From: Lentisphaerae bacterium ADurb.Bin082
GTDB lineage: Bacteria > Verrucomicrobiota > Lentisphaeria > Oligosphaerales > Oligosphaeraceae
Reading direction: 5' to 3'
DNA length: 64,000 nt
NCBI GenBank assembly: GCA_002070945.1
Contig: MWEG01000073.1
Location: 1 to 64,000, forward strand
The notes under the pieces were generated by a model. That model saw only the letters and a list, made by a program, of their open reading frames with translations, was not told the origin of the DNA and ran no database searches. Both the position numbers and the translations under genes were made by a program. Positions 4,107-21,131 of this stretch are shown piece after piece (position 1 is the stretch's first letter; every line of letters begins with the position of its first letter).

Positions 4107-4159
4107 GACACCGTGAACGGACAGGCACGGACAGAGCACAACGGAACCCTACATTCCCG

Positions 4160-4325
4160 CTCACCGTCCACTAACGTCCATTAACGTCCACGTCCACTCT
4201 CCACTAATGTCCACTTTTGTCCACAGTCCATCGTCTACTAACGTCCACTAAAGTCCACTAACGTCCATTGTCCACTGTCCATTAAAGCGCCTTACCCTGG
4301 ACGCTTTGCTCCTCAACTTGCCGGA
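4160..4325. repeat. Dispersed GTCCA-rich repeat element, copy 1
   Basis: A degenerate array of GTCCACTAACGTCCATTAA-like units (about 4160-4280) ends in a short inverted repeat (AAAGCGCC...GGACGCTTT), then CTTGCCGGAAC and a conserved AATATCAATG-like end. The same order occurs at 60666-60845. It follows thiI and contains no credible ORF. The unit size is irregular (about 6-14 bp), which excludes a CRISPR array. Confidence 0.75.
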
Positions 4326-4385
4326 ACCCCGAATATCAATGAGTGTTCGGTTACGCTGATTTTCAGCATTTTTGCATTTTCGCGC

Positions 4386-4414
4386 TTGAAACTTCCTTGC
4401 CAGCAGGCTATAAT
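4386..4414 (+). promoter_or_regulatory. Sigma70-type promoter of repeat unit 1
   Basis: TTGAAA at 4386-4391, a 17-base spacer and TATAAT at 4409-4414. This is close to the ideal housekeeping promoter. Predicted transcription starts around 4420, directly at the 5' arm of the following hairpin. Confidence 0.65.
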
Positions 4415-4418
4415 TATA

Positions 4419-4492
4419 AACGACGGCGATTTTGACGTTACGAGCAGGCCACCTTGTTGGTAGCTGGCGTCAGAAATCGCCGTTGTTTTTTT
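4419..4492 (+). ncRNA. Candidate small hairpin RNA, copy 1
   Basis: About 73 nt from the predicted start to the end of a T tract. The 5' arm (4419-4437, AACGACGGCGATTTTGACG) pairs with the 3' arm (4468-4487) through about 19 base pairs with one bulged base. The 30-nt apical region can form a second small stem. The arm is followed directly by seven Ts (4486-4492), as in a factor-independent terminator. No family is recognised. Alternatives are a bare promoter-terminator repeat or a mobile palindromic element. Confidence 0.5.
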
Positions 4493-4516
4493 AGTACACA
4501 GCAGTACGTTTCGCGC

Positions 4517-4545
4517 TTGAAACTTCCTTGCCAGCAGGCTATAAT
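4517..4545 (+). promoter_or_regulatory. Sigma70-type promoter of repeat unit 2
   Basis: TTGAAA at 4517-4522, a 17-base spacer and TATAAT at 4540-4545. It is identical in layout to the promoter of unit 1. Confidence 0.65.
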
Positions 4546-4549
4546 TATA

Positions 4550-4623
4550 AACGACGGCGATTTTGACGTTACGAGCTTGGCCACATGTTGGCTGCTGGCG
4601 TCAGGAGTCGCCGTCGTTTTTTT
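4550..4623 (+). ncRNA. Candidate small hairpin RNA, copy 2
   Basis: Second copy of the hairpin. The 5' arm (4550-4568) is unchanged. The 3' arm (4599-4618, CGTCAGGAGTCGCCGTCGTT) differs from copy 1 at three positions, yet every change keeps a Watson-Crick or G-U pair. The apical loop has diverged (CAGGCCACCTTG versus CTTGGCCACATG). A T tract ends at 4623. Conservation of pairing with loop divergence suggests selection on RNA structure. Confidence 0.5.
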
Positions 4624-4629
4624 AGTACA

Positions 4630-4675
4630 CAGCAGTACGTAGTTCAAGCTTCAGCTTGCCGTACGTTGCCGCCTT
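4630..4675. repeat. Dispersed palindromic repeat (AAGCTTCAGCTTG core), copy 1
   Basis: GTAGTTCAAGCTTCAGCTTG followed by CGTACG. The same sequence occurs in inverse orientation at about 21050-21095, where it also ends next to a CGCGCTTT-like sequence resembling the start of the 131-bp unit. Confidence 0.55.
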
Positions 4676-4739: not shown

Positions 4740-4827
4740 CTCGCCCCTAACGAATTATGAATTATGAATTATGAAATGCGCCTCAGCATTCAACATTCAG
4801 CATTCAGCATTCAGTCCCTCGCCCCTC
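4740..4827. repeat. Heptamer-array element, copy 1 (three GAATTAT units, four CATTCA-type units)
   Basis: Flanked on both sides by CTCGCCCCT. Inside are GAATTAT x3 (4752-4772), the conserved linker AAATGCGCCTCAG, then CATTCAG/CATTCAA heptamers (about 4784-4813). Further copies are at 6148-6255 and, inverted with longer arrays, at 34273-34447. It lies directly after the stop of the first prepilin-like gene. Confidence 0.8.
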
Positions 4828-4850
4828 CAAAAGCCCCGCCGTCGTATTGC

Positions 4851-5642
4851 TTATTTAGTCCGATACCATGCTTTGCCATGTGCTTCCAGTCCTGCGCCGG
4901 TCAGGTACATATCCTGCGGCAAGGCAGTCGGCGTCGTCACTCCGGCAACGTGTCCGTCGGCCCAGAGAATATTGCATGTTTTCCGTCCATGCCTGGCCCA
5001 GGCGGCGCCTTCCGCCGTAGAGCGAGCAAGATTCAGCATGGAATTATGCGGAACCTCAGCCAAATCGGTGTTATAGTTGCCAATCCCGGAATCGCCGGCA
5101 TAGACTTTCTCCGAGGGATTGCGGTACTCGGAAAATCGGACCAGCTTCTTGTTTCCACTCACCATGGCCGACCAGCTGGCAAAGCAATGGCCCAGGGAGA
5201 CGCCGTACATCTGCCCCCAGTACCAACAGCTGTAGTAGGCTCTGGTGACGCCAAGCCGTTCCGGGCAGAAGAATTGATTGTTGCCCATGCCCGCGCTATA
5301 GGTTACGTCAGTGTACTTCAGCCAGGACAAAATAGCCCCATACGAAGCAGAATTGTGGTTCGAGGACAACCTCGTCAATCCCATGGCATACAGACCCTCC
5401 ACGTAGGCATCGCCGCAGACATATCTCATCGTATGCGGCAAAGTCGAATCCTCGTTGTCATCAGCATACAGAAGCACAGAGATACCTACCTGCTTCAAGT
5501 TGCTGACACAGCTGATGGTGCGGGCTTTATCCCTGGCCTTGGACAAGGCCGGCAGCAGCATCGACGCCAGAATCGCGATGATGGCAATCACCACTAGAAG
5601 TTCAATCAACGTAAAGAACACCACTTGCTTCAACGTCTTCAT
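4851..5642 (-). CDS. Prepilin-like (pseudopilin) protein with N-terminal methylation motif, copy 1
   Basis: 263 residues. Residues 9-25 are [17 protein letters not shown], the type IV pilin/type II pseudopilin signal and hydrophobic helix, followed by [24 protein letters not shown]. The C-terminal region contains [17 protein letters not shown], typical of the DUF1559-like prepilin family abundant in Lentisphaerae and Planctomycetes. The residue before the FTLIEL phenylalanine is Phe, not the usual Gly. The ATG at 5642 was chosen over the upstream in-frame start because an AGGAGG box lies seven bases before it and the same start is used by the paralogue at 6273-7067. Its function in these phyla is unknown; it is probably an exported or envelope-anchored protein. 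Confidence 0.85.
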
Positions 5643-5644
5643 TT

Positions 5645-5669
5645 TGCCTCCTTTTCGGCGCCTGCCGAA
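5645..5669 (-). promoter_or_regulatory. Hairpin plus strong RBS before prepilin copy 1
   Basis: On the minus strand TTCGGCAGGCGCCGAA forms a 6-bp stem-loop that ends directly before AAAGGAGGCAAA and the ATG. The same hairpin-RBS unit precedes the second prepilin-like gene, with one loop base changed. Confidence 0.5.
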
Positions 5670-6040
5670 CACTGTGCTCTTTCACCTCAACTTTCGAGAC
5701 TCATTTACCCGGAACCGTTTCGCAGCCATTCCATTAGGGCTATGTTCAGGATCAAGTAACATGCCTATGATAAAGCAAGCGAGCCAACACTACCACAGGA
5801 TGGGCTGCCAAACCCAAAAGAGGCGGCATGAACTTGCTGAAGCGTACTCTAATCGCTTTCTAACAATTATTCAAATTCATTCCGGAACATTTACTCACCA
5901 AGCTTGACCTGGAAGCATCCAGCTTACTTGGAAAAGTTGATCAACTTATGCCCGACCAAGTCATGCTGTTGCTCTGATGCATGCTCTGCGCGCCCACTCC
6001 ATCAGCCTAAATCACGTTATGATTTCCGGAGCAAAAGCAG
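5670..6040. other. Intergenic DNA upstream of prepilin copy 1; no gene seen
   Basis: No ORF with a ribosome binding site or recognisable protein was found. It must contain the promoter of the 4851-5642 gene, but no clear -35/-10 pair stands out. Its base composition is more AT-rich than the flanking genes. Confidence 0.4.
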
Positions 6041-6147: not shown

Positions 6148-6255
6148 CCCCTCGCCCCTAACGAATTATGAATTATGAATTATGAATTATGAAATGCGCC
6201 TCAGCATTCAACATTCAGCATTCAACATTCAGCATTCAGTCCCTCGCCCCTAGAC
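6148..6255. repeat. Heptamer-array element, copy 2 (four GAATTAT units, five CATTCA-type units)
   Basis: Same flanks (CTCGCCCCT) and linker as copy 1, but each heptamer array has gained one unit: GAATTAT x4 at 6163-6190 and CATTCA-type x5 at about 6202-6239. It is placed identically after the second prepilin-like gene, so it was duplicated together with the gene. Confidence 0.8.
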
Positions 6256-6272
6256 AAAGCCCCTCCGTCGTA

Positions 6273-7067
6273 TTACCATTTAGTCCGGTACCATGCTTTG
6301 CCGTGTGCTTCCAGCCCTGCGCCGGTCAAGTACATATCCTGCGGCAAGGCAGTCGGCGTCGTCACTCCGGCGACGTGTCCGTCAGCCCAGAGGATATTGC
6401 AGGTTTTCCGTCCATGCCTGGCCCAAGCGACGCCCTCAGCCGCAGTGCGACCAAGTTGCAGCATGGAATTCTGCGGAACCTCAGCTAAATCGGTGGTATT
6501 GGCGCCCAGCCCGGAATCGCCGGCATAAACTTTCCCGGAGGGATCACGGTAATCAAGAAGTCGCGCCAGCTTCTTCCTGCCGATCGACAGTTCCGTCCAG
6601 CTGGCGAAGCTATGCGCCAGGGAGACGCCGTACATCTGCCCCCAGTACCAGCAGCTGTAGTAGGCCCTGGTGACGCCGAGCCGTTCCGGGCAGAAGAATT
6701 GATTGTTGCCCATGCTGACGCCATAGGTCACGTCAGAGTACTTCAGCCAGGACAGAATAGCCCCATACGAAGTGGAAGCATACTCACTGGACAACTTCGG
6801 CAATCCCAGGGCATACAGGCCTTGCACATAGTCTGAACTGGTGACATATCTCAGGTAATGCGGCAAGGTCGAATCTTCGTTGTCATCAGCATACAGAAGT
6901 AAGGAGATGCCTACCTGCTTCAAGTTGCTGACGCAGCTGATGGTGCGGGCTTTGTCCCTGGCCTTAGACAAGGCCGGCAGCAGCATCGCCGCCAGAATGG
7001 CGATGATGGCAATCACTACTAAAAGTTCAATCAACGTAAAAAACACCACTCGCTTCAACGTCTTCAT
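6273..7067 (-). CDS. Prepilin-like (pseudopilin) protein with N-terminal methylation motif, copy 2
   Basis: 264 residues, a close paralogue of the 4851-5642 product along its whole length. It has the same [19 protein letters not shown] start, the same [19 protein letters not shown] region and the same C-terminal end. Differences concentrate in the central part around residues 75-110 and 160-185. The RBS is AGGAGG seven bases before the ATG. As in copy 1, Phe precedes the FTLIEL segment. Copies 1 and 2 with their flanks form a tandem segmental duplication of about 1.4 kb. The role is not known. Confidence 0.85.
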
Positions 7068-21047: not shown

Positions 21048-21131
21048 GCTAAAAGCGCGAAACATACTGCAAGCTGAAGCTTGAACTACATACGATGCCG
21101 CCGCCGTCCACCATGTCCACAACGTCCACAT
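21048..21131. repeat. Dispersed palindromic repeat (AAGCTTCAGCTTG core), copy 2, plus GTCCAC repeats
   Basis: Inverse orientation of the 4630-4675 element (GCAAGCTGAAGCTTGAACTA), next to AAAAGCGCGAAACATACTGC. It is followed by CCACCATGTCCACAACGTCC (21107-21126). Confidence 0.55.

Follow-up and report, generated by a model that had tools for sequence, protein, structure and literature searches.

Between thiI on one side and an opposite-strand DUF1559 prepilin-like gene on the other, the stretch of 64,000 nucleotides analysed here (the window) carries two head-to-tail units, 4378-4508 and 4509-4639, with a spacing of 131 bp and 92% identity, as seen by reading the sequence and with a repeat finder (Table 1). 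Their TTGAAA-17-TATAAT elements were the top two in 6 kb in a promoter scan, and none of 500 Markov shuffles of the 70 nt upstream equalled them. A stem of about 19 bp has its 5' end 5-6 nt past each -10 box, which is the expected transcription start, and it is closed by a run of seven Ts (4486-4492 in unit A, 4617-4623 in unit B). The folding energies were -36.5 and -39.2 kcal/mol, with none of 200 shuffles as good. A preliminary description, made from the letters of the window, had reported the tandem units with these promoters, stems and T runs, and repeat finder, promoter scan and folding each confirmed it.

Table 1. Positions of the tandem units in the window and of the elements within them.
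Feature	Position	Strand	Remarks
Unit A promoter, TTGAAA-N17-TATAAT	4386..4414	+	11/12 consensus matches; 0/500 Markov shuffles as good
Unit A predicted small RNA, one long hairpin ending in seven Ts	4420..4492	+	z -6.7; model R2 70.4 bits
Unit A conserved core, loop type A	4435..4470	+	GTTACGAG 4437-4444, CTGG 4464-4467; alignment A5; 17 copies in 10 genomes
Unit B promoter, TTGAAA-N17-TATAAT	4517..4545	+	11/12 consensus matches; Markov shuffle test
Unit B predicted small RNA, one long hairpin ending in seven Ts	4551..4623	+	z -6.7; model R2 60.3 bits
Unit B conserved core, loop type B	4566..4601	+	GTTACGAG 4568-4575, CTGG 4595-4598; alignment A5
Tandem duplication of the 131-bp promoter-hairpin-terminator unit	4378..4639	+	all 11 differences within 4446-4484

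Eight of the 11 differences between the 131-bp units fall in the loop and three in the 3' arm (4474 A/G, 4476 A/G, 4484 T/C). Pairing is kept at all three of the latter, as had been claimed. However, this argument should be interpreted with some caution, since the pair counts of the six closest copies, taken alone, exceed those of shuffles by little (36 of 500 in a weak test). The best reading of the two units is that they are genes for independently transcribed, self-terminating hairpin RNAs of about 70 nt, where transcription is predicted from the promoter and terminator signals.

The surroundings contain further repeats. A run of 10-bp GTCCACTAAC-like repeats at 4152-4302 lies between thiI and the RNA units, and similar runs are found at the thiI locus of a close relative (L008). 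Adjoining unit B is a small palindromic repeat, GTACGTAGTTCAAGCTTCAGCTTGCCGTACGT (4632-4668), with related copies at 21070 on the other strand and in another relative (L007). The neighbouring prepilin-like (DUF1559) genes at 4753-5672 and 6164-7067 are each followed by the same AATTATGAATTATGAATTATGAA and CATTCAGCATTCAG repeats, and the pair looks like a segmental duplication.

Extent and anatomy of the hairpin family

In the source genome (5.1 Mb in 126 contigs) the window pair are the only copies. A nucleotide search of 99 relatives added copies in two further genera of the same bacterial family (G010 and G017); the named relatives fetched with ThiI were Lentisphaerae, Victivallales, Oligosphaeraceae and Verrucomicrobia MAGs. 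A covariance model built from six copies (R1) reached further families, and a second model (R2), built from 17 copies, finds these 17, scoring between 40.7 and 70.4 bits, in 10 of the 198 genomes of the class. Since the model was built from these members, they necessarily score high, and fairer tests are the earlier R1 scan and the clear gap between the lowest member and the next match, at 26.7 bits (G026). The latter lies in coding-like sequence without a terminator hairpin and was set aside as a chance match; looser matches in three more class genomes (G169, G111 and G090, 21-23 bits) were assumed to be due to chance. A wider covariance-model search had been proposed in the preliminary description, with many copies that had randomly lost the stem named as the mark of an inert repeat; the source genome holds just two copies, and stemless debris was absent.

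Phylum-wide scans beyond the class Lentisphaeria gave no copies, and their single weak match (G384) is without the core. Viral contigs, PLSDB plasmids and INPHARED phages also gave none, the plasmid and phage searches being blastn with the window copy as sole query, and the pattern matches in the viral collection (L055-L074) were coding coincidences in which the hairpin is absent. No Rfam 15 family matched the hairpins at curated thresholds, tRNAs near other copies being the only matches, and permissive Rfam scans placed only chance-level matches on the hairpins. This bears out the preliminary statement that no known family is recognised. Acido-Lenti-1 (RF01687), a candidate RNA reported from Lentisphaerae (PMC2864571), was considered and rejected, with no match at E up to 10 for the window or up to 5 for the other members. 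The hairpins very probably form a real RNA family, one with no match in Rfam or the literature searched and apparently undescribed. So far it is restricted to the class Lentisphaeria, where it is patchily distributed over several lineages. Non-coding RNAs of this class have hardly been studied, and the family adds a usable covariance model that Rfam is missing.

The best-conserved part of the RNA, which the preliminary description had not singled out, is an internal-loop region within a core of about 36 nt, with conserved inner bases 5'-GUUACGAG and 3'-CUGG. In alignment A5 the segments GUU-A-CGAG (with one A to G change) and CUGG are nearly invariant across 17 of 17 sequences, and the region is closed by an R-C-G / C-G-Y stem end. 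Inward of it lie an invariant AG/CU, a variable asymmetric stretch, a 3-bp stem that varies (CCA/UGG, CUA/UAG, GCA/UGC, CCG/CGG) and a short apical loop, usually CN1-2UGU, that changes little. Such a small core with near-invariant loop bases is a compact object for study.

The outer stem behaves differently. For most genus pairs the 5' arms are identical at only 0-7 of 14 positions and yet remain paired, with folds of about -22 to -42 kcal/mol. Over the 17 sequences 94% of cells are paired, against 84% in shuffles, six pairs are altered on both sides, and double-changed cells number 17 against 3.3. Covariation reaches 0.39 compared with 0.18 in shuffles, none of 500 shuffles is as high, and the signal is lost when the partner is slid by 1-3 columns. 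The two A-U and G-C pairs bordering the internal loop are the same in every copy and are therefore uninformative on pairing. Taken together, the strong part of the evidence for a maintained stem comes from distant relatives, whereas the window's own changes argue for it weakly.

Two loop types are found in the window, type A (...GCAGGCCACCTTGTTGG) and type B (...GCTTGGCCACATGTTGG). Genome G017, from another genus, has the same tandem A-B pair with a different promoter arrangement. The types therefore either predate the present 131-bp duplication or have had their flanks homogenised, and their recurrence argues against random drift. The preliminary description proposed that variable loops recognise different targets. 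Our results support the part of this idea that concerns the existence of two loop types, but the conservation of GUUACGAG/CUGG favors a common partner.

Transcription signals and genomic settings

Outside two loci (G125 and G174), every one of the 11 units that stand first in an array or have their own promoter shows a -10-like element whose end lies 18-22 nt upstream of the core, and the best sigma70-like pairs found at that spacing differ in sequence between genera. Some promoter matches, those of G017 and G080, are no better than shuffles when taken one by one, and in G125 and G174 a promoter-like match is absent. Almost every locus other than G174, which is without one, has a U-tract after its last hairpin. 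There may be one, two or three units at a locus, with one to three copies per genome: two promoters with two hairpins in the window and in G192, one promoter with two hairpins in G017 and G076, and three hairpins in G174. Because their inner units have no promoter, the G017 and G076 arrays look like single two-hairpin transcripts. The family thus shows what is expected of self-terminated trans-acting small RNAs, namely an own promoter at the right distance and a paired structure with covariation. The preliminary proposal of two transcribed, structure-constrained RNAs is strengthened by the promoter spacing in other genera, the covarying stems and the lack of stemless debris, with transcription itself remaining a prediction.

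The genes beside the copies are unrelated to one another and include an IclR regulator, a beta-lactamase-like protein, an efflux porin, a type IIG-like restriction enzyme, an MFS transporter and a prepilin. A type III toxin-antitoxin RNA, which would have a toxin gene directly downstream of the repeats, was rejected on this ground, as no shared or toxin-like neighbour was seen. One hairpin directly follows a tRNA-Leu (G125), one lies ahead of a same-strand prepilin-like gene (G080), and three tandem hairpins lie in the rtcA leader between rtcR and rtcAB, with rtcR divergent (G174, L082 777-5071). At the thiI site of two close relatives (L007 and L008) the units are absent, and in G017 a copy has been duplicated together with about 130 bp of flank. 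In two species of one genus (G124 and G125; L080 5609, L081 5561) synteny begins exactly at the hairpin, and the upstream genes are wholly different.

Two loci lie in prophage sequence. In G076 two hairpins stand antisense between Mu-type genes F and G; the terminase of this prophage shares 40% identity with that of Pseudomonas phage B3. In G154, which belongs to another family, all that survives of a decayed Mu/B3-like prophage (L111 104-1845) is the end of F, at 65% identity, and a piece of the protease, at 62%; the hairpin there is placed as in G076, with promoter and stem intact. Both genomes thus have the hairpin antisense and adjoining gene F and the protease in related Mu/B3-like prophages. 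Of the 198 genomes, 30 have homologues of F, namely four of the 10 carriers and 26 of the 188 non-carriers. The presence of F is thus a poor guide to that of the RNA, which belongs to a single phage lineage rather than to Mu-like phages generally. No relatives came up when IMG/VR was searched with the protease and terminase proteins of the prophage. The family spans chromosomes and Mu-like prophages and is repeated in arrays, and it is best read as having spread partly by phages.

Candidate modes of action

We propose that the units encode trans-acting hairpin RNAs that engage a conserved partner, probably a protein, at the internal loop and serve as decoy or scaffold, a reading to which we give a probability of roughly 0.45 and which draws on sequence comparison. 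Two lines of reasoning lead to it. First, the loop is conserved while the outer stem evolves freely, modules form arrays and no neighbour is common to the loci, which together suggest an RNA acting in trans with a conserved partner. Secondly, near-invariant unpaired bases occupy both strands of the internal loop and one to three modules stand at each locus without a shared neighbour, so that trans binding of a conserved protein would be the most likely mode; a protein may also be the simplest partner. The outer stem would then be scaffold and terminator alone, and the centre (the asymmetric internal-loop region 5'-GUUACGAG / 3'-CUGG, the 3-bp stem and the small loop) would be read by a partner common to the carriers. 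At least one Mu/B3-like prophage lineage carries the unit as a moron would be carried, antisense between two head genes, and such carriage would account for some of the patchiness of the distribution. The identity of the partner would tell whether an RNA decoy is being spread by the phages of these bacteria.

Protein-titrating small RNAs of the CsrB type likewise act in trans and repeat hairpin modules on one transcript. Unlike them, the present family is without an array of GGA loops and has one to three much longer hairpins, and its partner is a predicted one. A likeness also exists to bacterial Y RNAs of the YrlA type, which go with Ro60/Rsr and are often found in rtcBA operons; a long stem formed by the ends, a conserved internal-loop region and a U-tail are common to both. 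However, the hairpin family is without a tRNA-like module or cloverleaf-like part, and no Rfam Y RNA matches it. The resemblance of GUUACGAG/CUGG to the Ro-binding site is a loose one. Salmonella-type rtc operons encode Y RNAs (PMC7790460), and the position of the G174 hairpins between rtcR and rtcAB raised the question of membership. This was rejected, as a search for TROVE/Ro60 genes (PF05731) gave nothing in the 10 carriers and weak matches in three non-carriers, one of them above the cut-off.

The main rival is a regulator acting by base pairing, in which GUUACGAG and the apical loop would be antisense seeds for mRNAs or another RNA. Unpaired conserved segments of 7-8 nt, an own promoter and a U-tailed terminator are usual in trans-acting small RNAs, the two loop types recur in G017, and GUUACGA complements UCGUAAC of 16S rRNA (about 1495-1501 in E. 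coli), extended to an 11-nt match there in one member. Seeds would not need both internal-loop strands to be conserved, however. In most members shuffles yield 16S matches as long as the longest real one, and the complementarity of GUUACGA and of the type A and B loops to 16S rRNA is not significant; we hold this reading to be somewhat unlikely.

That the hairpin is a cis-acting element, a terminator or leader into which a site for a ligand or protein is built, agrees with the rtcAB leader of G174 (divergent from rtcR), the hairpin immediately after tRNA-Leu and the one upstream of the same-strand prepilin-like gene. In the window, though, the units are followed by a convergent gene (4851-5672, minus), the prophage hairpins are antisense to their neighbours, and no downstream gene is held in common. 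As most copies have start and stop signals of their own, nothing is left for cis regulation, and we consider this mode quite unlikely.

The patchy distribution, the unit missing at the thiI site of L007 and L008, the G017 duplication with its flank and the G124/G125 synteny that starts at the hairpin could all be produced by what is mainly a DNA element, such as a recombination or transposition site folding as single-stranded DNA, whose resemblance to a promoter and terminator is incidental. This is improbable, given that promoter placement and U-tracts recur on unrelated sequences, that genomes hold one to three copies without a common recombinase alongside, and that the element was not found in viral contigs or, by blastn with the window copy alone, in PLSDB and INPHARED.

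RNA anti-CRISPRs (Racrs) are short RNAs in phage genomes that form solitary structured units; those published (PMC10651486) mimic repeats and stand alone in viral genomes. The G076 and G154 prophage copies, with their own promoter and terminator and a moron-like position, resemble them. A Racr-like function, or another phage counter-defence decoy, is nevertheless very improbable: many copies are chromosomal and most lie outside recognisable prophages, the core exceeds a repeat in length, and neither model nor pattern scans across the class found a CRISPR array whose repeat has the motif.

Finally, it seems far-fetched that a phage-shuttled RNA family acts on the translation machinery, with hairpins that might unfold on the decoding centre or direct something to it. 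GUUACGA and the type A apical ACCUUGUU are complementary to the 16S rRNA strand beside the decoding site, and the type B GGCUGCUGGC is complementary to the 530-loop strand.
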